From a virus, in the IMG/VR virus record IMGVR_UViG_3300047667_000540, positions 1 through 27,246 of that record: DNA of 27,246 nucleotides. One strand, 5' to 3'. A model generated the notes under the pieces. It ran no database searches. It worked only from the letters and a program-made list of their open reading frames with translations, and had not been told where the DNA came from. Below are positions 1 through 20,065 of this stretch, in pieces (the first letter of the stretch is position 1; every line of letters begins with the position of its first letter). The position numbers and the translations under genes were made by a program.

Positions 1-3000
1 TCTTGAAAAGATTTACTTTCAGGATTATATTTTTTATTTATACGCTCTTGTACTTTAGCTCGCTGCTCATTACTCAATACATCGTTCATGAAACTATCTA
101 TAGTTTCTCTGCCTTCTGGAGTAAATAAACCGTTTTTACCTTTAAAAGCTCTACGAGTTAAAAAATGAGATAATTCATGAGATGCAGCACTTACGGCGCC
201 GTTTTTTAAAGCTTGATCTCTATTAACTAATATTACATTTTTATAAGTTTTACCTTTTATTATCATGGTTTCTTTAAACACAGCATCTGATGTATTATTA
301 AATCCATTTTCTGCAGCTATATCTATGTAATCTCCTTCTGGTAATTCCCTAAAATCTACATCTAAACCTGGAGCTTCTTTAGCCACATAATCTATATCAG
401 CTTGATATTCTCCAACCTCTATTTCTCTACCTTCACTTCCGAGCATCATCATCTCTTTACCTAGCTCGGTTATTCTTATATTATTCTCTTGTATTTGAGG
501 CTTGTATATTACATCTAAACTAGGATTGTCTTGTATTTTTTGCAACATCTCTAAGTTTTGTGTTTTTATTTTTCTAGCATCTAATATTTTTCCAAGAAAT
601 AAATCTTTTTTAGCTTGTATTTGCTTTGACTCTCCTTTAAATTGTTTATTAGCCTCTATAATAGCCTCTGAATATTCACCAAACTCTTTTTGCATTAAAA
701 TAAAAGCATGAGTATTTCTTTCTATGCCCATTTTTTCAGCCATAACAAGGTTTAAAGCTTCAACTGGAGTTCTAAAGTTGTATCCATTGTTTCCATCAGA
801 TACTGGTGTATCAGAAAACTTACCTATTTCTTTTAAATCTTTTACGCTCAGCTCTTGCCCTGATTGTATTTTTTTACTTATAATATCAATCTTAGCTTCA
901 GTTGTTTTTTGATTATTAGTTTGTGCAGCTATACTTTTCTTAGCTTGAACCACGTTGTTTTGTGTATTTAAAACGCTTGCTGCTAGTTTTAAAGCTTCAG
1001 TCTGTTTCTTAACTTCAGGAGAGTTCATTCGCGCTGAATTCATTTTATCAACGCCAAGCTCTTTCATTTTATTATTTAAAGCTTCTGCTATTTCTCCTGG
1101 GCTACTAAACTCTTTTACACCTAAAGTTTTAGATGCTTCTACTGTTTTTTGAGTTCTACTATCTATTGCTAATATTCTATTTTTAACGTCAGTGACTACA
1201 GATCCTCTCATGCTTAATGCAGAAAAAGCAACAACATCACCTACTAATTGATCTATATCTGTTAAATGCTTCATTGATTCTTTGAAGTCTAACTCATCTT
1301 GTTCAGTTTTGTTACTTGAGTACCAATTAATTCCTATATTAAGACCTTCAACACTTTTAGCTACACTAGTAGCTGAAACACCACCCAAGACCATTCTACC
1401 CGCAGCATTAGTAACAACACCAAGTCTTGTTCTAGCAAACTCTGAAAAATAAGGTAAGTATGTTAAAGCTGCTTTTTTAGTCATACCAGCTACAGCACTA
1501 TTACCAACACCAAAAGACACCGCGTCTGTGTTTGATATTTTTTCTCCGTTCCAGAGAAATCCACCAACCTCATTAGCAACATTCATAGTTATAAGTTCTT
1601 TAGTAGCACCGCTAAGCACGTTGTAAGTTCTTTTAACAGCTTGTGATTTACCTGAACCCATACTTTTAAAAAGCTTATCAATACTTGCTAAAGCAGGCTT
1701 CACACCATACATTTTGCCTCCTGCTTTAACTTTAACTCCTTTAGATGCATATATAGCCATAAGCAATGGAGCTATTCCACTTAAAGCATCTGTAGATATT
1801 TCTGGTATACTTGAATTGTTAACACCTTTATCTAATATAGTCTGATCAACTTGAAGGCCCGTGCTTCTAATAGCTTCTGCATAAACTGCTGCTGCTTCAG
1901 TAGGGCTACCGCCTACGTCTCCTAGTTCTCCAAAAGAGTCTGTTCTTAAATAATTTTCACCAGTAATACCTTTTTGAAGTCCAGCTAAACCTCTAGCAAG
2001 TAAAGGAGCTTCTTCTATTGTCATTAAGTTAGAATTAAGCTTAATAGCTCTATCTAAAGCAAGCAACTCAAAAAAAGCTTCATTGTGCTCTAAAGCTAGT
2101 GGATTTTTAGACATTATTTTAGTAATGTTTTTTCCTATAGATAAAAAATCTTTTTTTCTACCTGCATCAGAAACATCATCTAAGGCTCTATCTTTAGATC
2201 CAGTAAAATAATTTATTATATCATTAACAAAACCTTCATCTGTTTCTTTTATATCTTCATTATTTTTAGAAATATTCTCATCAATTGCTAGTAATTTAAA
2301 AAAAGCTTTTTTCCTAGCTTCTATTAAAACATCTACAGTAGGTGCTTTATCTTGAAGAGCATCAGTTTTTTCTTTAACTAAAGCAATATCTCCATCGCTT
2401 AAACCCATATCCCCTTCCTCTAATGGTGGTATAATGTTTTTTTCGTCTATAGAAACACCTATTAAATTACCATTTTCATCATAAGCCTTGTCTCCTGCAT
2501 TAGCTTCTTTTCTTAATATTTTTTCTTTTAGTTTTTCAGATAATTCTCCTGTTTTTTTGTATTCATCAAATATTTTTCTTTCAGAAGTTGTAAACTGTCC
2601 TTTATCAAATCTTTTTGTAAATTTATCAATAGTTATTTGAGCGCCTTCAGATAATTCTCCTGTTTTATAATAAACATTTAGATCATTAGCTTTGGAATCT
2701 TTATTTTTAAAGTTATTTAAAATAGACAAATTTGCTTCAACAAAAGCATCTTCATCTACAGCTAAGCTATTACGTATTTTTGAAGCAGATCTATTATTTA
2801 ACTCTTTACGTATAGGCGCAAGAATATTGTTAGGATCCACTTCTTTTGGATTACCAAATATATTTAAATCTTCAGTATCTACCATAACAAAACCACTACC
2901 TTGACTTTCAATCTTGCTCTTGAATCTACCAGGATAATACTTCTCTAACTCTTTAAATCCATCAGCATCTACAAGCTCAAATGGATCTTTTTTATCTTCA

Positions 3001-3595: not shown

Positions 3596-5443
3596 TTAAA
3601 TTTTAGTAATAATCCATTTGCCTTTATTCTTTCCTGTGCCTGCAACTACATTACCGGATCCTAACTTGAATCTAGCATTGGCCGCGGCTTCTTTAGTATC
3701 ATAAGTTTTAACGTTCTCCACACCAATGTTTTTCAACATATACGATTGCTCTGGAGGAGTAATACCAGCTCCAGTAGCTAACGTTGTAGTTATATCTGCA
3801 TTACTCATACTACCAGTTTGATCTTTAGTTATATGCATTCCAAGACGAGGTACGTAAGCTTGTTGTTGTATACCTTGTGCAGATGATCCTGCTTTTTTAT
3901 TTGGAACAAGAGTTACCATATAAACACCTTGATCTTCTATATTACTAGGGACATCTGTGGTTGGATAATTTCTTTTAACCAATTCTATATAATCTTTTCC
4001 TGTCATATACTCTCTATTAGCAGGGAAATTTGTGCCTAAACCGTTTATTTTATTATTATTTAAGTCTTTAGCAATTGCCGAAGCTTTACTTTGATGCAAA
4101 GCTGGATCATAAACACCAGCTGAGTTATTAACTGGCATTAAAGAAATATCACTACTACGTGAAACTAATTTACTAAAAGTAGGTTTATTTGCATTCATCA
4201 TTAATTTATCTTTCTCGGTGAGTTGACCTGTAACTTTACCAGTTGAATCTTTTTCTCCAACAACATTTTTTTCTAATAATTCATTATCTTGAGGTGAAAG
4301 CAGTTCAGAATAATAATTAGCTAACCCAACTCTAGCTGTTTCATTTGCTTTGCTAGTTAAAAATTCTTTATCTTTTTCATCTACCACTCCGTCCTTGGTT
4401 AAGTCACCATATTTTTTTCCAAAATCTTCATTACTCATAGAATTTATTTGCTTAATTTCTCTCCATGATATTTCACCTTCCACAATAGGATTACCATCGT
4501 TATCTCTTAAAAAACCACCTCTCCACAGTTGATCCCATTTTTTTTCAAATCCAGGAGAATTAATATCTACGTCTAATCTTTTTGAGTATTTTCCTAATAA
4601 ATCATTTTTTACTTGAGTTGGGTCGTACTTTTTTTCTTTTGTTTCTATCCATTTTTTACTTCCTTTATCCCAAATCTTGTTTGTCTCTACAGTAGGCTCA
4701 AACAACTCACTTAAACCAGGCATGCCTTTAGCACCGTTCCAATTATTACCTAAACTTTTTTGAAGCAAGTCATCTTCACCAATACTAGTAAACCAATCAT
4801 TGCCTTGAGCATTATTAGCAACATCAGCAGATAAATTTTCTGTATCGTTTCTTGTTATAATACCATTTTTATCTACATTAGTTGCATTTAAAATAACATT
4901 TCCACTTTCGTCTGTATCAAATTCAAAACTACTATATTGATCATTTTGAATATTTTGAGAAAAAGCGTATTTTTCGTTAGAACTACCTCTTGTAACTCTA
5001 CCAAGATCAATATCTTGATCAACAGCGTCTTGATTAGCTCCTATAGCACTTCCTGACTCATTACTTAAAACAGCCCAAGAACCTATATCTTGTAATACTC
5101 TTCTGTCTCTAGCCACTTTCAATCTAAACTCATTTCTAAGTTCAGGAGTTCCTCCAGACCCAAAAGCTTTTTCATGAAATACTGCTTGTTCTGTAGCTAA
5201 TTTTCCTACTAATTTAGAAGCGCCATCATTCCAAGCGGCTTTACCTGATTTAGTTTGTGCCTCGTAGTCTGTAAAAAAATCATTAGCAAATTGTTGGCCT
5301 TCTTTAACAAGTGCGGAACGTTGTTTGTTTTTTTCTTGTTGTTTTTTTGCTGTTAAATTTGTTATTTGAGCTATTTGTTGAGCTACTCTAGCATTGTGGG
5401 CGCTAGCATGTTCTGCTGCTTTGGTTATATAAGTTAATGCCAT
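3596..5443 (-). CDS. Probable internal virion protein, 615 aa
   Basis: The gene starts 2 bases after the stop of the 295-aa gene with leader AAAAAATATAAAT directly before ATG, and is followed after 2 bases by the giant gene. I do not recognise a named family. The N-terminal 60 residues look helical and rich in Ala, Gln and Lys. The centre is hydrophilic, rich in Asp, Asn and Lys. Residues 347-358 read DLTKDGVVDEKD, which fits the calcium-loop pattern of dockerin/EF-hand repeats (Asp at 1, 5, 9 and 12, Gly at 6). A looser copy, NVDKNGIITRND, lies nearer the N-terminus. No signal peptide or membrane segment is visible. Its place between a gp14-like protein and a giant protein corresponds to T7 gp15, so an ejected internal protein is the best inference; a structural tail component is the alternative. 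Confidence 0.85.
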   Translation of the reverse strand: MALTYITKAAEHASAHNARVAQQIAQITNLTAKKQQEKNKQRSALVKEGQQFANDFFTDYEAQTKSGKAAWNDGASKLVGKLATEQAVFHEKAFGSGGTPELRNEFRLKVARDRRVLQDIGSWAVLSNESGSAIGANQDAVDQDIDLGRVTRGSSNEKYAFSQNIQNDQYSSFEFDTDESGNVILNATNVDKNGIITRNDTENLSADVANNAQGNDWFTSIGEDDLLQKSLGNNWNGAKGMPGLSELFEPTVETNKIWDKGSKKWIETKEKKYDPTQVKNDLLGKYSKRLDVDINSPGFEKKWDQLWRGGFLRDNDGNPIVEGEISWREIKQINSMSNEDFGKKYGDLTKDGVVDEKDKEFLTSKANETARVGLANYYSELLSPQDNELLEKNVVGEKDSTGKVTGQLTEKDKLMMNANKPTFSKLVSRSSDISLMPVNNSAGVYDPALHQSKASAIAKDLNNNKINGLGTNFPANREYMTGKDYIELVKRNYPTTDVPSNIEDQGVYMVTLVPNKKAGSSAQGIQQQAYVPRLGMHITKDQTGSMSNADITTTLATGAGITPPEQSYMLKNIGVENVKTYDTKEAAANARFKLGSGNVVAGTGKNKGKWIITKI

Positions 5444-5445
5444 AT

Positions 5446-6333
5446 TTATATTTTTTCAAATTTAACATCAATACCTGAGTAATCAACTAAATCATATCCA
5501 TATTTGTCTTTTAGTATTGAATCTTTAGATAATTTAGGATCGTTAGACATAACGCCTTTATATTTACCATGTCCGTAGTTTTTGTTTATATATTCAAAAG
5601 TATATATTTTTAATCCACTTTTAGATTTTCCTACTTCTTTTATGTTTTCTTTTAATCTTATATCACTGCCAGCCAGTGCTGTTCCTACATTAGAAACTGT
5701 GCCAACCACAGCTTCCGTAGCAGCGTCTCCGTAAGCAACCTTTTGTTGTGTATAAAAATCTTCTTTTTCTTCTACTCTAGCTAAGTCAGCTGAGTCTCTA
5801 GCCTCTTGTCTATTATATGCATTACCCTCTTCTCCTATAGCTGATTTTTCTAAATTCATTCTTTGTTGGTTAGCTGCTGCTTCTCCAACCGCTTTTTGTT
5901 TAGCGTTTGAAGTTTCTTGCTGTTCAATAGTTGCTGCTATTCCTTTTTTACTCTGCATTGCTGCTCTAGCTAAAGCTGTTGCACCGCCAGCAGATGCCCC
6001 TGATGAAACCATAGCATCTAGTGTATTTGCTAAAGCCATATCGGTTTGTTCTGCTTGAAACTCAGCTGCCGCTGTAGATACCGCTAAATTAGCATACGGA
6101 TTGTTAACTTGAGCTTTTAAAGCTCTAATGTCAGCTGCTTGATTTAAAACAGGTTGCCTATTAGCTCTCATTTGAGTGGCTTCAGCTTCTCTTTTGGCTG
6201 ATTCTGCTGCTGCTTCTTTTTCTTTTTTCTTATTAGAAGCAAAAGATATAGCTCCAGATATTAAAGCTGCACTACCTCCTATTATTGCTGCAACTCCAAC
6301 AGTTGCTTCCATGTAAATTATTTCTAATATCAT
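5446..6333 (-). CDS. T7 gp14-like internal virion protein with short C-terminal S74 chaperone-like domain
   Basis: The start ATG at 6333 overlaps the TGA of the cupin-like gene (ATGA), suggesting translational coupling; a second ATG at 6312 is possible. A hydrophobic Gly/Ala-rich segment at about residues 12-31 is followed by a Lys/Glu-rich stretch and a long Ala/Gln-rich helical region to about 215. This resembles T7 internal protein gp14, which has a hydrophobic N-terminus and an Ala-rich helical body and joins the ejection conduit. From Ser223-Asp224 the C-terminus reads SDIRLKENIKEVGKSKSG, then IYTFEY and YKGVMSND, the start of the peptidase S74 (intramolecular chaperone) domain; the Ser-Asp pair matches the self-cleavage site known in endosialidase tails. 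Only about 72 residues follow, far shorter than a full chaperone domain. Whether it still cleaves is unknown. Confidence 0.85.
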   Translation of the reverse strand: MILEIIYMEATVGVAAIIGGSAALISGAISFASNKKKEKEAAAESAKREAEATQMRANRQPVLNQAADIRALKAQVNNPYANLAVSTAAAEFQAEQTDMALANTLDAMVSSGASAGGATALARAAMQSKKGIAATIEQQETSNAKQKAVGEAAANQQRMNLEKSAIGEEGNAYNRQEARDSADLARVEEKEDFYTQQKVAYGDAATEAVVGTVSNVGTALAGSDIRLKENIKEVGKSKSGLKIYTFEYINKNYGHGKYKGVMSNDPKLSKDSILKDKYGYDLVDYSGIDVKFEKI

Positions 6334-6830: not shown

Positions 6831-6845
6831 TTTAATTTAATTTAA
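6831..6845 (-). repeat. Three tandem TTTAA pentamers before the cupin-like gene
   Basis: On the plus strand TTTAA is repeated three times, ending 3 bases upstream of the ATG of the 165-aa gene. The repeat also contains the TAA stop of the 683-aa gene. It supplies the A/T-only leader in place of a Shine-Dalgarno sequence. The repeat itself is seen directly; a translational role is inference. Confidence 0.5.
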
Positions 6846-8893
6846 TACCCAGAAGACATCATGTATTCACTGCTAGCCGCCCATAATTCTTTTGGTCCAC
6901 CTTTTTGTGTTGTGTTATCTGTTTTAATTTTTACAGTTGCAAAATAACCTTTTATACCAGTAATACTATCTCCAAATCTAACTTCACCAGGAGCCGCTAA
7001 TGAATTAGATACCAGGTTAGCTACGTATTTATTTTCTTTTCTATCAAATCCGGCTCTAAAAGGAACTCCTCCTTGAATATATAATCCTTCATCATAACTG
7101 TGAATAGAATTAGTAACGTCTTGAGTGTTTATATAATTAGCGTTAGGTCCTAAATTAGGTTCTGTAAAACCAGACTTAAAAGATTCAACTTCCCAACCGT
7201 TACTACCTTCGTATTCTATATTTTTAAAAACTTTAACGCTTGAAGCTGAAGGATTAAAAACGAAAGTTACAGTTGAAGGGTTGTATGTTTCGTAATAAAA
7301 ACCTCTATTATTAATTACAGTTTCATCATAGTGCTCATATAGCTCTGACTGAGTAAACGTATAAAAATTATTTTTTAAACTACTCATTAAGCTAGGTTTA
7401 TAGCTAGCAAAACTAACCCATCCATTTATAGACTCATCAAAAGTTAGTGTCTTATAAGTGCTTTCTTTTTTGTTGTCTACATGTGAAGGCGTTAACTGCA
7501 TAGACATAACATAATTTTTATTATGAATATCCCAACCACCTATTGCTCTTGGTTTTATTGGACTTGTAAATCTAAAAGTAGTTCCAGATGAATAGCTTCC
7601 AATAAATTCAGATAAATAAACCTCTGTAGTAGTAGCTCCAATAATAACTTGACTTACAAAACCATCTAAATTTCCACTTGACCCGTTTGCTGCTGAAAAA
7701 GAAACATTCATACCTGTTGTTAGATTTGTTAATTCAAATCCATCTGCTGTTATGCTTGAGTTAGTTAAAGTTATAACAATATTAGTTGTTTCTACACTAG
7801 AAACACCTACCACTACGTAATTAGAGTTGTCATCAACTATCAAAGCTAGCTCATCTCTAAAATAATCTGTCATGCCATAAGCACTTATCTCAGTAAGGCC
7901 ATCACCAGACAGTCTCATTATAGCGTTTCTATCTCTATCTGAAAAGTATTTTCTATATCCGTAAACAGCAAAACTCTCTGGGTTATTACTTATACCATAC
8001 TCTCCTTTGTAAGGAACTATTTGGCCTAAAACTTTAGCTCCAGCTTGAGTCTGAGTACCACCCTCGGTTGTATATATTGTATCTTTATCTATTAAAGCTC
8101 TACTTATTTTATTTTCTTGAAATACTATTAAATTAGTGTCTTCAGAATAAGTTTTTTGAATAGAACCATTTTGAGGATCTGCAGATCTAACTAAGTCTTC
8201 AGCAACTGAGAAAACGTTTGTATTGTTAATACCTGTTCTAGAATTATAAAGTCCAGAATATATTAATGAATTAAATCTATTTTGCTGCTGAGGCTCAGGT
8301 TCGTTAACATAAGCTTTAACACCTTTATCCGTAGATGTATTATTGTAACCACCTCTGATCCTCGACTCTTCTACGTACCAACTATAATTATTAAAACCTC
8401 TATAGTCTAATGTACACTCTAAAACAGGTGTTGCTGCTGTTGTATTTGGTATTGTAAACTTTAAAATATCACCAGGTTCGTAATCCACGCCCGTGGTTGT
8501 ACATTCAAGACCAACTACTTCTCCAAAAACAACTACATTATTAACATCTTCTACTGAGGCTACAGTAATAGTAAACAACGCATCACTGCCATTAGTAACA
8601 GAAGCTGACAAAGGCGCTTGATCAACATATATATGATCTGCCGCAGGAATTAAGAGAGCATTTTTTTTACCTGAGCTTATGTTTCTTTCAAAACCATTTG
8701 GCCTTTGGTTTAATTCAATAGAGTTTGTTGTACCAGGATAGCCGATACCAGGTGATATAGCCATACCAGCAGGTGTTGTTAAATACCCATTTACACCATC
8801 AGGTATAACAGCCAACACGTCGTCCATGTTTGTATCTATTAATTTTTTTAGTAAATAAGTATTAAACCAATCTACTTCTATAACTGTAGCCAT
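6842..8893 (-). CDS. Tail nozzle/muzzle-type structural protein, C-terminal partner, 683 aa
   Basis: The start is chosen at the ATG preceded by ATAATATAAAT. Around residues 275-350 the protein has the block LIVFQENKI, then YKGEYGISNNPESFAVYGYR, then KYFSDRDRNAIMRLSGDGLT and ISAYGM. This is the conserved part of large podovirus and crAss-like tail proteins of the T7 gp12 (nozzle, or muzzle) kind. Further on, FYTFTQSELYEHYDE and KVFKNIEYEGSNGW belong to the same family. An inserted beta module with the pattern G-x-x-Y-x-x-GD lies at about residues 95-160 (GVDYEPGDILKF). It follows the 1836-aa gene, which carries the N-terminal hallmarks of the same class, so the two may be one ancestral protein encoded in two genes. 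Expected location: the distal tail tube or nozzle. Confidence 0.85.
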   Translation of the reverse strand: MATVIEVDWFNTYLLKKLIDTNMDDVLAVIPDGVNGYLTTPAGMAISPGIGYPGTTNSIELNQRPNGFERNISSGKKNALLIPAADHIYVDQAPLSASVTNGSDALFTITVASVEDVNNVVVFGEVVGLECTTTGVDYEPGDILKFTIPNTTAATPVLECTLDYRGFNNYSWYVEESRIRGGYNNTSTDKGVKAYVNEPEPQQQNRFNSLIYSGLYNSRTGINNTNVFSVAEDLVRSADPQNGSIQKTYSEDTNLIVFQENKISRALIDKDTIYTTEGGTQTQAGAKVLGQIVPYKGEYGISNNPESFAVYGYRKYFSDRDRNAIMRLSGDGLTEISAYGMTDYFRDELALIVDDNSNYVVVGVSSVETTNIVITLTNSSITADGFELTNLTTGMNVSFSAANGSSGNLDGFVSQVIIGATTTEVYLSEFIGSYSSGTTFRFTSPIKPRAIGGWDIHNKNYVMSMQLTPSHVDNKKESTYKTLTFDESINGWVSFASYKPSLMSSLKNNFYTFTQSELYEHYDETVINNRGFYYETYNPSTVTFVFNPSASSVKVFKNIEYEGSNGWEVESFKSGFTEPNLGPNANYINTQDVTNSIHSYDEGLYIQGGVPFRAGFDRKENKYVANLVSNSLAAPGEVRFGDSITGIKGYFATVKIKTDNTTQKGGPKELWAASSEYMMSSGY

Positions 8894-8931: not shown

Positions 8932-11900
8932 CTAACTACTCTGGCTGTTTTCTTCATCTGGTAATGTAACTACAACGGTTATATTTATCGAAGTACTACT
9001 TTTTCCAGAGCCAGAAGCGTCATTTACATATACTGGAATTGTAAAAGAACCATTAGTACCTCCAGTAAATCTAAGTATCTGCACATTACACGGTATTGGA
9101 AAAGAATTTGTTAGAGGTAATGGAAAATTACTAATACTTCCACTGTTTCCGTTAACAAAAGACCATGCACCTCCTGCCGGCTGTAAATTTGATTTAACCC
9201 ATCTTAAGCCTTGGTCTTGAACACCCAACACAGCACCATTAATGGCATATAAAGCTACTTGAACAAAACCACCGCTTGAGCTTAAAGTAATATCAGTAGC
9301 AGGTATAGGAGTTTGAACATTATTAACTATGTTTGATTCCATTAGTTTTGGTGTGATATTTCCTAAAAATCCACTTACAACAAAATCTTTTGAATATGAA
9401 ATATCTGCCTCTATATTACTTACATTTATATAAAATTTAAATCCATTTAAAGAACTATTATTTCTAAAGTACCTATTAACTGTATTTTTAATTAGCAATT
9501 GATTTACATTAGCGGGTAACGGAGAAACTAATGAGCCAGAAAACTCATTTGAAATGTCAGAAACAGCAAGGTTTTCAACTTTTGTTAAGGAAATATCAGC
9601 CCCAGCCAATAAAACTCCATTAATATTTTTACAGCTAATTGTAGTTAATATCGTGTTTAATGCATCATTTTCATTATAAAAAATGTTAGCTCCTTTTTCT
9701 TGACCTGTTCCTTTAATAAATACTAGTTCAAAAGGGGAGGCTGCTGCTGCGGCTGTTGTTATGGCAGTATTTAATTCAGATATTAATCCACTAGTAGAAC
9801 TTTCCCAGTATATATCTAAATTAGAATTTCTTGGTTTAACTTCCATTACTGATAATGGATCTGGCCAAACTGGGTTATCTTGCGCTATATGCTCTGGAAG
9901 CAGCGTAAATTCTAAAGGATCACTCCAGTAACAACCTATAGCACCGTTAGTTAAATCATTACCATATGAATCAATATACACTTTGTCTCCAGCACTATAT
10001 CCAAATCCTAGAGTAGTTACTTGCCAGAACATCTTTCTAGGACTACCAGTAACATCACTACTATCTACTTTCTGTTGCATGCCGCTTGTATTCCAAGGTC
10101 CTATATTCAATCCTCTTAATCTTAACCCTGAACCACCGCCATTAGTACTTGTTGGAATACCACCACTAGAACCAAAATTAAAAGGTTTTAATTCTATGGA
10201 AATTGTATTGTCAGCTCCAGCGTCGTGGTGAGGATTCAAAGATAGACCAGTAACTACACCAGGACTTATTTTAATTATATCACCAACTTCATAACCGGAT
10301 ATTCCTCCACTCACAACTTTAATTACTAGATTAGGCTCTCTCATTGAACGCTCTAGTTTATTATCCCAATAGCTGTTTGTTTCAACAGCTGGAGTATAAT
10401 CTTGAACAAGTGATCCATATTCTTGGGTGGTAGAAGTCAATTGATCTCTAAAATAAAGACCAGTTACTGTAAATGATAAAATTGCGCCAGTTCCATTTCC
10501 ACCTCCACTATTTATGTATTCAAATTCATTTGAACCAGTAGCAGGCGTACCAGACGATTGAGTTAACGTTCTTGTAAAAGTATTTTTTTCGTGTAACGGA
10601 GTTGCGGACGTAACAACATTCGCGACTTGTAGAGTTGGGTAATCAATAACCAAGTAAGGATTAGTCCCTTCATCGGTAAATTCCCTAAAAGGAACTTTAT
10701 AATTAGAGTTAGCTACTGAACTAGATTTGTATCCAGAGGTAAAAGCTATTCCAGGATCTTTGCCGCCTTGAAAAGCTTGAGCATTTAATTGAGTAGCAAC
10801 AACTGGTGGTGGTGGTGAATACGCTCCCCATTGAGCTTCGTTTCCATTACCAATTGTTATTTCACCAACAAAACCAATAGCATTTTTATTTCTCCATTTT
10901 GTTTCTGGGTTTGGATATAAAGAACCATCAACTGGGCTTTTTAAAATTATCCTATCATTAGACGAGATTTCAGCAATTGAAACAGCCATATTAGGATTTA
11001 AAGAACCTCCAGTCCAAGCTGGCAAACCCATTCCTTTTGGCCCCATGCTAGCATCATCATCATTATCTCTACTATATATAGCGTTGCTAAAAACTATGTT
11101 ATTATAATAAGCACCATAAACATTACCATATGTACTTAATCTGGCAACATTAGGATTACTTTTTGCTTGGTATATACCTGGCGCTATAAGAACTGAAGCA
11201 TCTAGTACTCTATTGGCAGAGTCATCAAAAGATACTTTACCTTCTCTATTTATACCTAAATCATTAACTTTACCTATAGCATCAACAGTGAAATAATCTA
11301 ATGTGTTTTTTCTTGTATTAAATTGTTGGCTTAAAGGTAGCCACTGTTGTGCAGATACTCTAGGGTATAAAACTGAATCACTTGTTGAAAACTGTGTTTG
11401 TTCTGGCGCTACATCTTCTGTACTTATTGGTATTTTATTTATATTATCTCCAGTTAAAGTAATATGAGACTGTAGTTTAGCTAAAGGTATGCTATATTCC
11501 GTAGTTCCAGATAAAGAATTAGGTAAATAAGCATTGTAATAATCTTCAGCTTCTTGTTTTACAACAACTTTATAACTATACCAACCTAGTGGATTAGAAT
11601 TTCCAATAATCTCAATGTCTATAGTAGAAGATAAAGTTGAAAATTGAATACTTTTGTTTAAAGTTATTCTTTTATTTGAATAGTCAACTGATATTATAGC
11701 TAGAGAAAAAGGTGTAGGAGTAGTGTCTTGATCTACGCCCTTAACTATACTTCCTATTATTATGTCGTTAGACCAATCAGCATCACTAACTTGCAATATA
11801 TTAGCTAATGTCTGTTGCGTTGGCGCTGGCGTTGATGCGCAATTTATAAAACCACTTCTATATAATCCAGGATAACCACCTGCGTAAGAAACTGTCTCAG

Positions 11901-14442
11901 GTATAGCGTTATTCCAAAACATTTTTATACTATCTCCAAACCAATTGTTTATGTTTGTTGACCTGTCTCTATATTTAGAAAAAATTGTTGATCCAGAAAA
12001 AACATCTGATGAATTTATGCTACCATTAGGGAAAACAACAGTTCCCTCATTTATAGCAGACAAAATAACATCTGAAGATCTTCCGTATTTATCTTGTAAA
12101 ACAACTCCAACTTGATAATTTCTATTTTGTTTAACACTATGTGTTATATAAGCTGCTTGTGAAGATTTATTAGAAAAGTCTTGGTCTAGTCTAAATTTTT
12201 CATTTATGCCTACATAATAGTCTAAAGTTAGAGGTGGAGTAGGTTTATCTATAAAATTACCAAAAACAACTCTATTACCAGTAACTGACTGTGTTTTAGC
12301 TCTAATAGGTATTTTATCGTAAACTCTAACCGTATCTGCTTCTGTTAAATTTCTAAAAGGTTTTCTAGACTGATAATTGTATTTAAATATTTTTGACGAA
12401 TTACCACTTATTTCTACATCTATATAACTAAACGTGTCTAACACTTTTACTTGAAGCCCATCAGACTCTTTATATAATATATCTATTTCTATTACTTTTA
12501 ATTTGTCATATAATTGATTTATAATAAATTCAGACTCTATATTTATTTCTACTTCATCTACTCTATTCTCAAAAAAAGCAACAACTGTTGAATTTGAGAT
12601 AGCATCTTCTTGAGATTTTATAACGCTAAATGCTATTGTATCGTACCTATGGTCAGCTTTTCTTGATTGAGGAGGCTGAGCGTAAGCTGCTGAAGGACTA
12701 GCTGCGCTGGGGTAACTGCTAAATGATTGTATCGGCACAATTGGAGTATCTTGTTTATTAAAAACAGTATTATTATCTGTTGAGCTAGTTAAGTAACCAT
12801 CTTGTTTTGGTATAAAAGCTGGTTGAGTAAATGGAGACATTAATGAATATTCACCATCTTCATATTTAAACCTATAAGCAAATCTAACAAATTTTTCTTT
12901 TAAAAAATCTGAATCCCCAGGCCAGTCAGACTCAAATTCTGGATTTTCTTCAGAAAAAGTTATAGCACTAGACATTATAAGCACTTTTGCATTAAACCCA
13001 GCAAACCAGCCGGGGATTGTTGAACCTACTACAATGTCATATAAGTTAGGCCTACTGGTGTTTACTACTACTGAAGCTACTTTAACGTCAGAATTTAAAG
13101 GGCCTTGATTAACTCCAGAAGAATTACCACCACCCACTGCTGAACTAATTAACATACCTTTACGAGGCTTACCATTGCAAACACACGTAAAAGCATAATT
13201 AGTGCTTTGTCTACCTGGAAAATTATCAGTTGGGTTTCTATAAAAAGGAGTACCAGAAGTTATTTGACCAACTAGTGAAGCCTCTTTAAATCTTTCAGAC
13301 TTAGTGTATGATGTTGGATAATATAATTTTATATCTTTACCACTAAACACTAAATCAGATTTTACTGTAGATTCAATTTCAAAATAAAAAGGATTGGTTG
13401 TGCTGAGAGCTTTTATTCTAATGTTTTGAGTTTGGGAAGTTGCTGCTGCGTCTGGATCAATAACTAAAAAATTACCTGGCTTTAAAGATTGGTATTTAAT
13501 AGGTACATCACAATCAAAGCTGGTTATTAAAGTGGTATTTATTGGTATTTCCACTTGCGCTCCAATTATTATTGGATTAATGCTTGAATTAAATACTGTT
13601 ATAGTTTTTGTAGCAGGAACAACGTTATTGACAACAACTGAAGTTATGTAAGAAATACCAGGACCACCAAAGCCGGTTATTTTCATTCCAGTAACAACAT
13701 TGTTAACACCTGTTGCAGGGACTTCAAAAACTGTACCTCCAGCTGGTATGATTGCATTATTAGTAACACTACCGTCAGGTAAAGTAGTATGGTATTCATT
13801 TGAATGGTAGCTAGATGCTACTTCAACAGAAGTTGCATTATATAATTTAATGCTGCTATGAAGCTGAGCAGTCTTATAAGGATAGTATTTAGCTAAAGAT
13901 ATTTGTTCTTCTGTTGTGTAATGAGTTGGTGTTGAGAGACCAGAACTATTAGCTAAGTTTACATTTATTTTTCTAGGTTGGTTTCTATTGTCAGTCCAAA
14001 ACAGTAATTCTTCTATTAAATTAACACCGTTTATTAAATTTGTGGTTGAAAAATTTAAAAAATTTCCATTTACCAAAACACGAGACTGACCTAGTATCAA
14101 ATCATAAACATGTATAGCACAATAAGCACCAGCTGGAGCTGGATTTGATAAAGAGCCAGAAGACGAATCTGTGTAATTTGTTATATATACATATATTCTA
14201 TCATTAGCGCTATCCATTAAGTTGCCTATAATTACAGCACCATCAACAGTAGATCCATTACTAGAGGTAAAAGAGTTAAGTTTTAAATTACCTAATACAT
14301 TTTCTAATGCACCAACATCAGCACCCTCTGATTTACTTACATTTATATTTTGAGCATCTCTATACTCGCCTTTAGATAATAATCTATCATCTAAGTCTTT
14401 ATTCATTTTAGACTTGATAAAAGTATTTTGCGCTTTTGCCAT
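8932..14442 (-). CDS. Giant tail nozzle/muzzle-type structural protein, 1836 aa
   Basis: The N-terminus (NTFIKSKMNKDLDDRLLSKG, then EYRDAQNINVS and a GALENVLGN block) is the hallmark opening of large podovirus tail-tube proteins in marine and crAss-like phages. A conserved block near residues 765-795 reads KQNRNYQVGVVLQDKYGRSS. Another, at about 945-1035, reads SYKVVVKQEAEDYYNAYLP and then DNINKIPIS. Residues about 1320-1490 hold two copies of a Gly-rich beta module ending in YEVGDIIKI and YSAGDKVYI. The last 200 residues are beta-rich, like an Ig-type or lectin-like fold. No membrane segment or signal peptide is visible. It starts 6 bases after the 399-aa adaptor gene. By order and sequence it is the nozzle below the adaptor ring, with the inserted modules probably exposed for receptor contact. 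It is about twice the length of T7 gp12. Confidence 0.88.
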   Translation of the reverse strand: MAKAQNTFIKSKMNKDLDDRLLSKGEYRDAQNINVSKSEGADVGALENVLGNLKLNSFTSSNGSTVDGAVIIGNLMDSANDRIYVYITNYTDSSSGSLSNPAPAGAYCAIHVYDLILGQSRVLVNGNFLNFSTTNLINGVNLIEELLFWTDNRNQPRKINVNLANSSGLSTPTHYTTEEQISLAKYYPYKTAQLHSSIKLYNATSVEVASSYHSNEYHTTLPDGSVTNNAIIPAGGTVFEVPATGVNNVVTGMKITGFGGPGISYITSVVVNNVVPATKTITVFNSSINPIIIGAQVEIPINTTLITSFDCDVPIKYQSLKPGNFLVIDPDAAATSQTQNIRIKALSTTNPFYFEIESTVKSDLVFSGKDIKLYYPTSYTKSERFKEASLVGQITSGTPFYRNPTDNFPGRQSTNYAFTCVCNGKPRKGMLISSAVGGGNSSGVNQGPLNSDVKVASVVVNTSRPNLYDIVVGSTIPGWFAGFNAKVLIMSSAITFSEENPEFESDWPGDSDFLKEKFVRFAYRFKYEDGEYSLMSPFTQPAFIPKQDGYLTSSTDNNTVFNKQDTPIVPIQSFSSYPSAASPSAAYAQPPQSRKADHRYDTIAFSVIKSQEDAISNSTVVAFFENRVDEVEINIESEFIINQLYDKLKVIEIDILYKESDGLQVKVLDTFSYIDVEISGNSSKIFKYNYQSRKPFRNLTEADTVRVYDKIPIRAKTQSVTGNRVVFGNFIDKPTPPLTLDYYVGINEKFRLDQDFSNKSSQAAYITHSVKQNRNYQVGVVLQDKYGRSSDVILSAINEGTVVFPNGSINSSDVFSGSTIFSKYRDRSTNINNWFGDSIKMFWNNAIPETVSYAGGYPGLYRSGFINCASTPAPTQQTLANILQVSDADWSNDIIIGSIVKGVDQDTTPTPFSLAIISVDYSNKRITLNKSIQFSTLSSTIDIEIIGNSNPLGWYSYKVVVKQEAEDYYNAYLPNSLSGTTEYSIPLAKLQSHITLTGDNINKIPISTEDVAPEQTQFSTSDSVLYPRVSAQQWLPLSQQFNTRKNTLDYFTVDAIGKVNDLGINREGKVSFDDSANRVLDASVLIAPGIYQAKSNPNVARLSTYGNVYGAYYNNIVFSNAIYSRDNDDDASMGPKGMGLPAWTGGSLNPNMAVSIAEISSNDRIILKSPVDGSLYPNPETKWRNKNAIGFVGEITIGNGNEAQWGAYSPPPPVVATQLNAQAFQGGKDPGIAFTSGYKSSSVANSNYKVPFREFTDEGTNPYLVIDYPTLQVANVVTSATPLHEKNTFTRTLTQSSGTPATGSNEFEYINSGGGNGTGAILSFTVTGLYFRDQLTSTTQEYGSLVQDYTPAVETNSYWDNKLERSMREPNLVIKVVSGGISGYEVGDIIKISPGVVTGLSLNPHHDAGADNTISIELKPFNFGSSGGIPTSTNGGGSGLRLRGLNIGPWNTSGMQQKVDSSDVTGSPRKMFWQVTTLGFGYSAGDKVYIDSYGNDLTNGAIGCYWSDPLEFTLLPEHIAQDNPVWPDPLSVMEVKPRNSNLDIYWESSTSGLISELNTAITTAAAAASPFELVFIKGTGQEKGANIFYNENDALNTILTTISCKNINGVLLAGADISLTKVENLAVSDISNEFSGSLVSPLPANVNQLLIKNTVNRYFRNNSSLNGFKFYINVSNIEADISYSKDFVVSGFLGNITPKLMESNIVNNVQTPIPATDITLSSSGGFVQVALYAINGAVLGVQDQGLRWVKSNLQPAGGAWSFVNGNSGSISNFPLPLTNSFPIPCNVQILRFTGGTNGSFTIPVYVNDASGSGKSSTSINITVVVTLPDEENSQSS

Positions 14443-18532: not shown

Positions 18533-20065
18533 TTAAGCTCCTTTGAATAACACGAAGTTATTAGCAGCTTGAGTTACTAAACATCTTTCAGATAAGAAAC
18601 TTACAGTCATAGCATCTAAAGTGTCAGTATAAGCACCGCCTACTGAACCAGTAATCCAAGATTTCATTCTTCGATCTTCAGTTTCAGAAGCTCTGTATCT
18701 CACATGTAAGAAAGGACGTCTGATGTTTGATCCTAACATTTGATCATATACTGTAGTAGTTCCAGCTGGAATCATTACACCATCAATTTCCTTATCCATA
18801 CCTCTTAAAGAAGCATCGTTAAGATATTTCCAGTCAGTTTTGTAGAAGTCATAAGAACCTCTTCTAAACCCTGAAAAACCAAAGTTAAGAGCCATATCGC
18901 CATCATTCTCAAATAGACCATAAGAAGCAGCTGTAGTAGAAGCAAATCCACCATTAACAGCAGCAATCATATCGTCAAAATCAAGAGCCGTAGATCTTGA
19001 TAAGAATAACATGTTTTCTTCGATAGCACCTTGCTTGTCTAAGTTTTTGAGTATTTCATCAAAATCTGATAAAGCACCTGAACCAGGAGCAGCAGCGCCA
19101 GCAAAACCAGAGTATACATTACCTCTTGCTTCGATAGCAGCAAATAAACCTTCAGAACCTTGAACATCAGAGGTTAAAGCCACATCATTAGTTCCACCAT
19201 ATTGGAATTGAGCTCCACTAGCATAAGCAGCAGTGTTCATATCTTCAGCTTCTATCATTGACATTTCTAGGTAATCTTCAAATCTTAATCTTGTTTCAGA
19301 CTCAGACTTTAAGTACCACAAGTATCCTGATTGACCATCTTCAGTAGAAACTTCAACCCAACCAATCTGAGCTGTGTCAGATCCATTAATTTGAAAGTTA
19401 TCTTTAAGAATCATTGGTCTATTAGAAAACTGCGTGAAAGCAGGTTGAATAGAACCTTGCAATCCAATAGCACCTTTACCGAATTCAGAACCGTAAACAA
19501 ATACGTTTACTTGCCCGGCAACAACACCTAAAGCATTAGTTGCTGTTCCGTAAAACTTAATTTGTAATTGATCTAACATATTGTTAGCAGAGCTAGTTAC
19601 AGCCTGTACTAAACCTTTTTGTACTATAAGTCCAGTAGCAACGTCAGACATTAAAACTGTTTGACCAACTCTAATAGCGCCTCTACGTGAAGCAGCAGCT
19701 ACATCAGGTTGAGCAACAGCTAAATTTAATAATAACTGAACATCAGCATCAGCAGTACCAGAAGCACCTGTGATTTGATTACTCTTGTAAGCTACGTGAA
19801 GTCTATTTTGTTCAGACCAAATTACTTGATCAGAAGTCATAGGCATTTCAGCTCCTACCATTCTCAAGAAACCACCAATTGTTCGGTTTCCGTATCTTTC
19901 TATCTCAGCTTCGTAAAGCTCAGGTAGATATTGTTGTGCGAAGTTGTTAACTGGATCTCCGCCCGCAGCATTTCCTGTAAAATCTAAATAGTTAGTGTTT
20001 AAAGCTAATCTATTTTGTGCTGGGACTATTGATGCAGGAAAACTTCCTGAATTTGAAAAACTCAT
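18533..20065 (-). CDS. Major capsid protein, crAss-like type
   Basis: This 510-aa protein forms the icosahedral shell. The C-terminal 78 residues are the clearest evidence: VPAGTTTVYDQ-type sequence (here IPAGTTTVYDQMLGSNIRRP), then FLHVRYRASETEDRRMKSWI, TGSVGG, DAM, FLSERCLVTQAANNFVLF. I recall this ending from crAss-like (Crassvirales) major capsid proteins. The N-terminus (YLPELYEAEIERYGNRTIGG, then SDQVIWSEQNRLHVAYKS) also fits. Codons are less A/T-biased than in neighbouring genes, as expected for a highly expressed gene. The leader AATAAAAATAAAAAAC has no Shine-Dalgarno sequence. It follows the scaffold-like gene by 18 bases. No obvious maturation cleavage site can be assigned. Confidence 0.93.
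   Translation of the reverse strand: MSFSNSGSFPASIVPAQNRLALNTNYLDFTGNAAGGDPVNNFAQQYLPELYEAEIERYGNRTIGGFLRMVGAEMPMTSDQVIWSEQNRLHVAYKSNQITGASGTADADVQLLLNLAVAQPDVAAASRRGAIRVGQTVLMSDVATGLIVQKGLVQAVTSSANNMLDQLQIKFYGTATNALGVVAGQVNVFVYGSEFGKGAIGLQGSIQPAFTQFSNRPMILKDNFQINGSDTAQIGWVEVSTEDGQSGYLWYLKSESETRLRFEDYLEMSMIEAEDMNTAAYASGAQFQYGGTNDVALTSDVQGSEGLFAAIEARGNVYSGFAGAAAPGSGALSDFDEILKNLDKQGAIEENMLFLSRSTALDFDDMIAAVNGGFASTTAASYGLFENDGDMALNFGFSGFRRGSYDFYKTDWKYLNDASLRGMDKEIDGVMIPAGTTTVYDQMLGSNIRRPFLHVRYRASETEDRRMKSWITGSVGGAYTDTLDAMTVSFLSERCLVTQAANNFVLFKGA

Follow-up and report, generated by a model that had tools for sequence, protein, structure and literature searches.

Podoviruses such as T7, P22 and N4 carry three-protein ejection cassettes, and the giant proteins that podoviruses eject are large and mostly unexplained. 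In T7, gp16 is the last and largest of the three internal ejection proteins and carries a transglycosylase. Iyer et al. (2017) defined zincin-like metallopeptidases (MPTases) of polyvalent proteins by a HEXXH motif in one helix and a Glu in the next, published them as 12 clades and described them as the commonest domain of polyvalent phage proteins (PMC5512222). The proposed roles include self-processing, release of domains after injection and attack on host proteins, and packaged phage metallopeptidases were predicted (PMC5512222); the idea of an injected protease is therefore not new. We found no experimental test of these predicted packaged enzymes in the literature. P1 DdrB undergoes cleavage before it is packaged, with its own MPTase as the probable protease, and N4 vRNAP possesses a HExxH domain, is packaged uncut and nevertheless requires its MPTase region for encapsidation (PMC5512222). 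The available text of the N4 vRNAP structure paper, in which the C1 domain of gp50 comprises residues 2124-2375, reports no proteolysis (PMC12633501). Iyer et al. 2017 make no mention of crAss-like phages (PMC5512222), one of which, phiCrAss001, has a cargo protein, gp47, detected in virions by MS (PMC10172136).

Here we analyse a 27,246-bp stretch of DNA (the window), the whole of IMG/VR record IMGVR_UViG_3300047667_000540, which comes from a marine crAss-like phage. Sequence comparison and structural modelling indicate that its giant last structural protein contains a zincin (HExxH + Glu, gluzincin-type) metalloprotease domain, and that this domain is a polyvalent-protein metallopeptidase of the Iyer et al. 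type. As the kind is already known, what we add is its identification in a marine lineage, the third ligand, the fold and a measure of conservation.

A crassvirus-type operon ending in a truncated giant gene

The window derives from a podovirus with crassvirus-type structural genes, including those for terminase, portal, head protein and a muzzle C-terminal domain (Table 1). Its head protein shares 40-51% identity with those of Flavobacterium Elemovirus phages, Maribacter phage Panino and ctfjg026. Two adjoining ORFs, the muzzle ORF of Table 1 and its neighbour at 8932-14442, match the muzzle-like family phrog_14478 (1474 aa). What a genome scan for hosts yielded was limited to short contigs in MAGs of mixed taxa, and on that basis we made no host call.

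Table 1. Positions of the features discussed, in the window unless a locus is named.
Feature	Position	Strand	Basis or remark
HELSH active-site motif, residues 1139-1143: two predicted zinc-ligand His and catalytic Glu	165..179	-	translation, model
Predicted zincin (HExxH metallopeptidase) domain, residues 1074-1197, second half missing	3..374	-	AlphaFold2 model and alignments
Last core strand before the active-site helix, residues 1115-1124, ending ...NVILVN	222..251	-	alignment and model
Helix with HELSH, residues 1136-1150	144-188	-	model
Final two bases, GA of the next codon	1..2	-	predicted third-ligand Glu about 6 residues beyond, outside the window
Last structural gene, a giant of which the N-terminal 1197 aa are present before the contig ends	3..3593	-	
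615-aa gene before the giant; middle ejection protein position	3596..5443	-	syntenic with a 576-aa gene of L139 (37%)
295-aa protein with a hydrophobic stretch at the N terminus, Ala-rich helices after it and an S74-like chaperone motif at the C terminus	5446..6333	-	
Muzzle protein C-terminal part; crassvirus-type tail	6842..8893	-	crAss_MUZ_C, E 3e-12
Major head protein (phrog_13704)	18533..20065	-	51% to ctfjg026, about 41-42% to Elemovirus phages
Complete giant of L139, 3025 aa (stop to stop)	L139:3470-12544		

In the window, the giant gene is the last of the structural operon, after the muzzle gene and behind two ejection-type genes. The long marine loci that we inspected likewise encode a small protein, then a 490-690-aa protein and then the giant at the end of a rightward operon, with convergent genes next; the ORFs that we inspected there showed no DxDGD RNAP motif. 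By position and composition, the 295-aa protein appears to be T7 gp14-like. This protein ends in an S74-type (endosialidase chaperone) motif, ...SDIRLKENI..., which is odd in an internal ejection-type protein. Small protein, middle protein and giant together seem to resemble the three-protein ejection cassettes of podoviruses, and gene order and the relatives suggest that the giant is carried in the head and injected.

The contig cannot be extended, because the window already spans the full IMG/VR record. In two IMG/VR queries, no contig carrying the missing C terminus was found; the sole match, a near-identical contig (L002/L083, 3300046534_000589), ends at residue 1182, 15 residues earlier. 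The closest relative, L139 (3300030102_002077), is 47% identical over 1201 columns that span the entire window fragment to its last residue, and shares with the window the order muzzle C terminus, fibre protein, small Ala-rich protein, middle protein and giant. Giants span 2300-3870 aa (3865 aa in ctfjg026 and 3703 aa in the Elemovirus phages), and the window itself encodes the N-terminal part only. In a BLAST comparison of the L139 giant with other giants, residues 151-900 were covered by about one match or fewer, residues 1051-1200 by about 22 and residues 2251-3000 by about 79, making the putative zincin stretch the best conserved within the first 1900 residues, where conservation is otherwise poor. 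In most relatives, the zincin domain is about 10-30% identical to that of L139, which occupies giant residues of about 1030-1240; the C-terminal half retains about 60% identity.

The preliminary description had raised the prospect of further enzyme domains in the missing part, and the downstream half of the relatives does contain HAD/polynucleotide-kinase (PNK)-like and P-loop modules. In L139, the HAD/PNK-like domain matches phrog_415 (E 2.2e-6), and a P-loop kinase insert is present in the C-terminal half of some relatives. The polynucleotide kinase/phosphatase-like HAD motif KKIR[VI]FDFDDTLA occurs in the C-terminal half of L139, L091, L093, L099 and L100, with a P-loop GGPGSGK beside the HAD domain in L099 and L100. 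This part of the giants is possibly a nucleic-acid end-repair enzyme within an ejected protein. DUF3293 (PF11697) was found in one ejection-position giant (E 1e-12) and is also annotated in the Elemovirus record (L090). Pfam detected no transglycosylase in 16 giants, unlike T7 gp16. The predicted zincin therefore sits in large multi-enzyme proteins, with HAD/PNK-like and sometimes P-loop domains, as expected of polyvalent proteins.

A conserved, predicted His-Glu-His-Glu active site

Translation of the giant ORF (minus strand, running off the contig) yields ...KNVILVNRDQALKNGAVSAASHELSHFLTRRAF..., with HELSH at residues 1139-1143 as the preliminary description had reported. By composition, 0.002 HExxH motifs are expected in this 1197-aa fragment, which has 5 His in total.

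We gathered related giants through an alignment of the conserved C-terminal half, so the motif was no part of the selection. Among the 80 loci obtained, 78 have a 5'-complete giant, and exactly one HExxH is present in 75 of these 78 proteins, against an expectation across all 78 of 0.39 by composition and 0.36 in shuffles. Where the HAD motif FDFDDT was found, HExxH lies roughly 850-1400 residues before it. In a cultured Elemovirus giant the motif reads HEIFH and stands at residue 1552 of the ORF. Of the three exceptions, L155 resembles the HEXXXH class of polyvalent MPTases, with HEILGH (HExxxH) at residue 1412 and EKEFLAEF downstream, and L161 and L164 have EELFH at the aligned place, having lost only the first His and kept the second His and the Glu. 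The complete His-Glu-His set is thus retained in 76 of 78 giants (75 HExxH plus the HExxxH of L155), as the proposed zincin reading predicts.

A second conserved acidic position follows the motif. In an alignment of 74 non-redundant domains, 73 of which reach the relevant column, a downstream Glu is present in 72 (98.6%), 29-86 residues after the second His; when the part after HExxH was shuffled and realigned, the best column reached 27% Glu. An Asp or Glu also stands seven columns beyond this residue in 68 domains. The downstream Glu is, judging from the alignment, the expected third zinc ligand. In L139 the candidate is E195, within ...DFQQKQYEEYL, six residues past the last residue of the window; it is missing from the window because the contig ends first. 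Leftward extension, by which the third ligand was to be found, had no sequence to draw on, but the relatives place a Glu just past the window end. The catalytic residues are the sole near-invariant columns of a domain with a mean column identity of about 14%, and their retention while the domain drifts makes it very likely that the predicted enzymatic activity is under selection.

Two giants are short: the L098 ORF (1509-5123, 1205 aa) and the L101 ORF (873-4565, 1231 aa) both stop about 200 aa past HExxH. An overlapping ORF may encode the rest of the L101 giant; in L098 the C-terminal half seems to be absent.

Predicted fold of the domain

An AlphaFold2 model of the L139 domain, built with 71 sequences, has a mean pLDDT of 86.9 and comprises a long helix (24-76), strand 80-84, helix 86-96, two strands at 104-107 and 112-116 and helix 128-142, which carries HELAH (131-135); E195 is placed within a later helix, 188-205. 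The model of the window domain (window 3-569, 189 residues; pLDDT 90.6) has the same element order, with strands 72-76, 96-104 and 107-116 and helix 128-142 bearing HELSH at 131-135 in domain numbering. In both, HELSH (pLDDT 91) or HELAH (pLDDT 87) lies on an active-site helix that follows a three-stranded sheet. The strand-then-helix setting that the preliminary description had noted is thereby recovered, and HELSH is modelled inside a zincin fold rather than outside one.

Structural comparison gave middling scores. VIA-align matched L139 residues 58-263 to the catalytic domains of solved zincins over 150-170 residues with Z of about 6.6, and the matches include the solved zincin that Iyer et al. 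used to recognise the superfamily; unrelated helical proteins reach equal Z, on the N-terminal helix only. Residues about 44-148 of the window model align to YbeY, a SprT-like protease, selecase and the zincin-like 3e11, among the matches listed, with Z of 3-5. Foldseek alone returned no significant PDB match for either model: E-values were weak and many rows were unrelated folds (STING, helical proteins). In a BFVD structure search, the best match was an uncultured-virus protein (E 6e-9); the lower rows included large-polyvalent proteins and crAssphage ctbg_1 A0A345MT41, an 'RNAP associated protein fused to zincin protease'.

Sequence-based searches returned less. Pfam and NCBIfam gave nothing convincing for the domain (Peptidase_M78 was best at 0.0017; DUF6782 reached 0.019), and a sequence profile against PDB gave only weak matches, snapalysin and IrrE among them. 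A GenBank phage protein search found no match to the giant or to L091's conserved C-terminal half, and only weak ones to the domain (E 0.4 and above).

Possible roles of the protease

Given that almost all relatives retain the active-site residues, it is very probable that a protease is packaged and injected by the phage. Our best guess is that the giant processes itself during or after ejection. The giant would be packed in the virion, be threaded by way of the tail into a Bacteroidetes host and, once ejected, refold in either the envelope or the cytoplasm of the cell. Zinc would be held in the zincin domain by HELSH and the downstream Glu, and the refolded enzyme would cut the giant itself or a co-ejected cargo protein, freeing the fast-evolving N-terminal part from the conserved HAD/PNK-phosphatase-like C-terminal half. 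We infer zinc binding, packaging, ejection, activity and a cis substrate for the giant, and favour cis cutting after ejection because of where the zincin lies, with a variable part on its N-terminal side and conserved enzymatic modules on its C-terminal side. Points against this reading are the loss of the first His in L161 and L164, the middling structural Z, the weak Foldseek E-values and the lack of a convincing Pfam peptidase match. As a whole, the reading of a zincin in a packaged, ejected giant that most likely cuts in cis after ejection has, in our estimate, about an even chance of being right.

An injected effector that, after ejection, cleaves in trans a protein of the host (one of its envelope, of its defences or with a regulatory role) is a serious contender, albeit an unlikely one. 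Effector MPTases have been proposed already (PMC5512222), and the greater divergence of the zincin (about 10-30% identity, against about 60% for the C-terminal half) is expected of a part that faces varied hosts, but such fast divergence is equally compatible with a self-cutting enzyme. Likewise, the L098 zincin forms the C-terminal end of a short giant that, ending about 200 aa after HExxH, seems to have no C-terminal half behind it to release, yet the mid-chain placement of the zincin in almost all relatives suits processing equally well. We consider it improbable that the enzyme is instead a maturation protease that, before packaging ends, trims the giant or further cargo proteins in the head or in the course of assembly. 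P1 DdrB, cut before packaging, provides a precedent (PMC5512222) and the giant gene lies within the late structural operon, but N4 vRNAP enters the virion unprocessed (PMC5512222), and the virion listing, read at protein level, gives phiCrAss001 gp47 its full-length mass. L098 and the uncut N4 protein are why we do not regard cis cutting as universal and keep a host target and maturation as live rivals.

More doubtful still is a structural or packaging role for the domain, with its catalytic site unused. L161 and L164 retain the domain despite having lost the first His, and the MPTase region of N4 vRNAP is needed for encapsidation of a protein that stays uncut (PMC5512222); however, the catalytic residues are the only near-invariant columns at such low overall identity, and nearly all giants have the full His-Glu-His set. 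A chance HExxH in a helical ejection protein merited consideration, as the motif is short and was originally seen in one sequence only. We rejected this explanation as vanishingly improbable given HExxH in 75/78 giants, the third Glu in 72/73 domains and the fold prediction. Self-processing during or after ejection remains our preferred reading, and EELFH in L161 and L164 offers natural variants that are useful for comparison.

Relation to crassvirus cargo, N4 and polyvalent metallopeptidases

phiCrAss001 gp47 has HEAFH and a downstream EENMAE, and its aligned gut relatives keep HExxH and Glu. Using gp47's own family alignment rather than the single gp47 sequence, we found that the gp47 profile matches the marine profile across both motifs (P 4.6e-5, hhalign probability 69%). 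gp47 and the ctbg_1 protein are giant virion cargo encoded after the muzzle gene with HExxH and EE..AE, and the marine giants, as predicted cargo, resemble them in this. In gp47, however, the zincin is near the C terminus (2157 of 2341), whereas that of the marine giants is at about residue 1100 of 3000, and RNA polymerase genes come next after gp47, whereas other convergent genes come next in the marine loci. The structural proteins of phi14:2 are MS-detected according to the record notes, and its cargo protein g070 did not match the zincin profile. This MS-detected protein (L187:10360-12141, 593 aa) matches Pfam Crassvirus cargo protein 1 (2.8e-10) and contains HEFTH and HEFIH, and g065 contains HEIMH; Crassvirus cargo protein 1 may itself carry zincin domains.

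One giant ejected protein can now be assigned a predicted enzymatic domain whose active site is defined. The domain persists in almost all members of a large marine lineage of uncultured phages and has a counterpart in a phiCrAss001 virion protein, and the proposal that phage cargo processes itself becomes directly testable. It is tempting, though speculative and probably too sweeping, to suppose that, in practically all crassvirus-like phages of Bacteroidetes from gut and sea alike, each virion injects a zinc protease that cuts the giant ejection protein after tail passage. If so, post-ejection proteolysis would be a general infection step in the viruses that are most abundant in the gut and in their marine relatives.

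By description, N4 gp50 is similar to the marine giants in being an ejected protein of about 3500 aa with a HExxH domain between modules; it differs in being attached to a T7-like RNAP, whereas no RNAP was found with the marine giants. With the polyvalent MPTases, the marine domain shares the HEXXH helix, the Glu in a later helix as modelled for L139, the three-stranded sheet, the giant protein, the adjoining enzyme domains and the occurrence of HEXXXH variants (L155). Unlike them, the marine set is clearly caught by no Pfam or NCBIfam family, and in this lineage the predicted zincin is joined to a HAD/PNK-like domain and a conserved C-terminal module.
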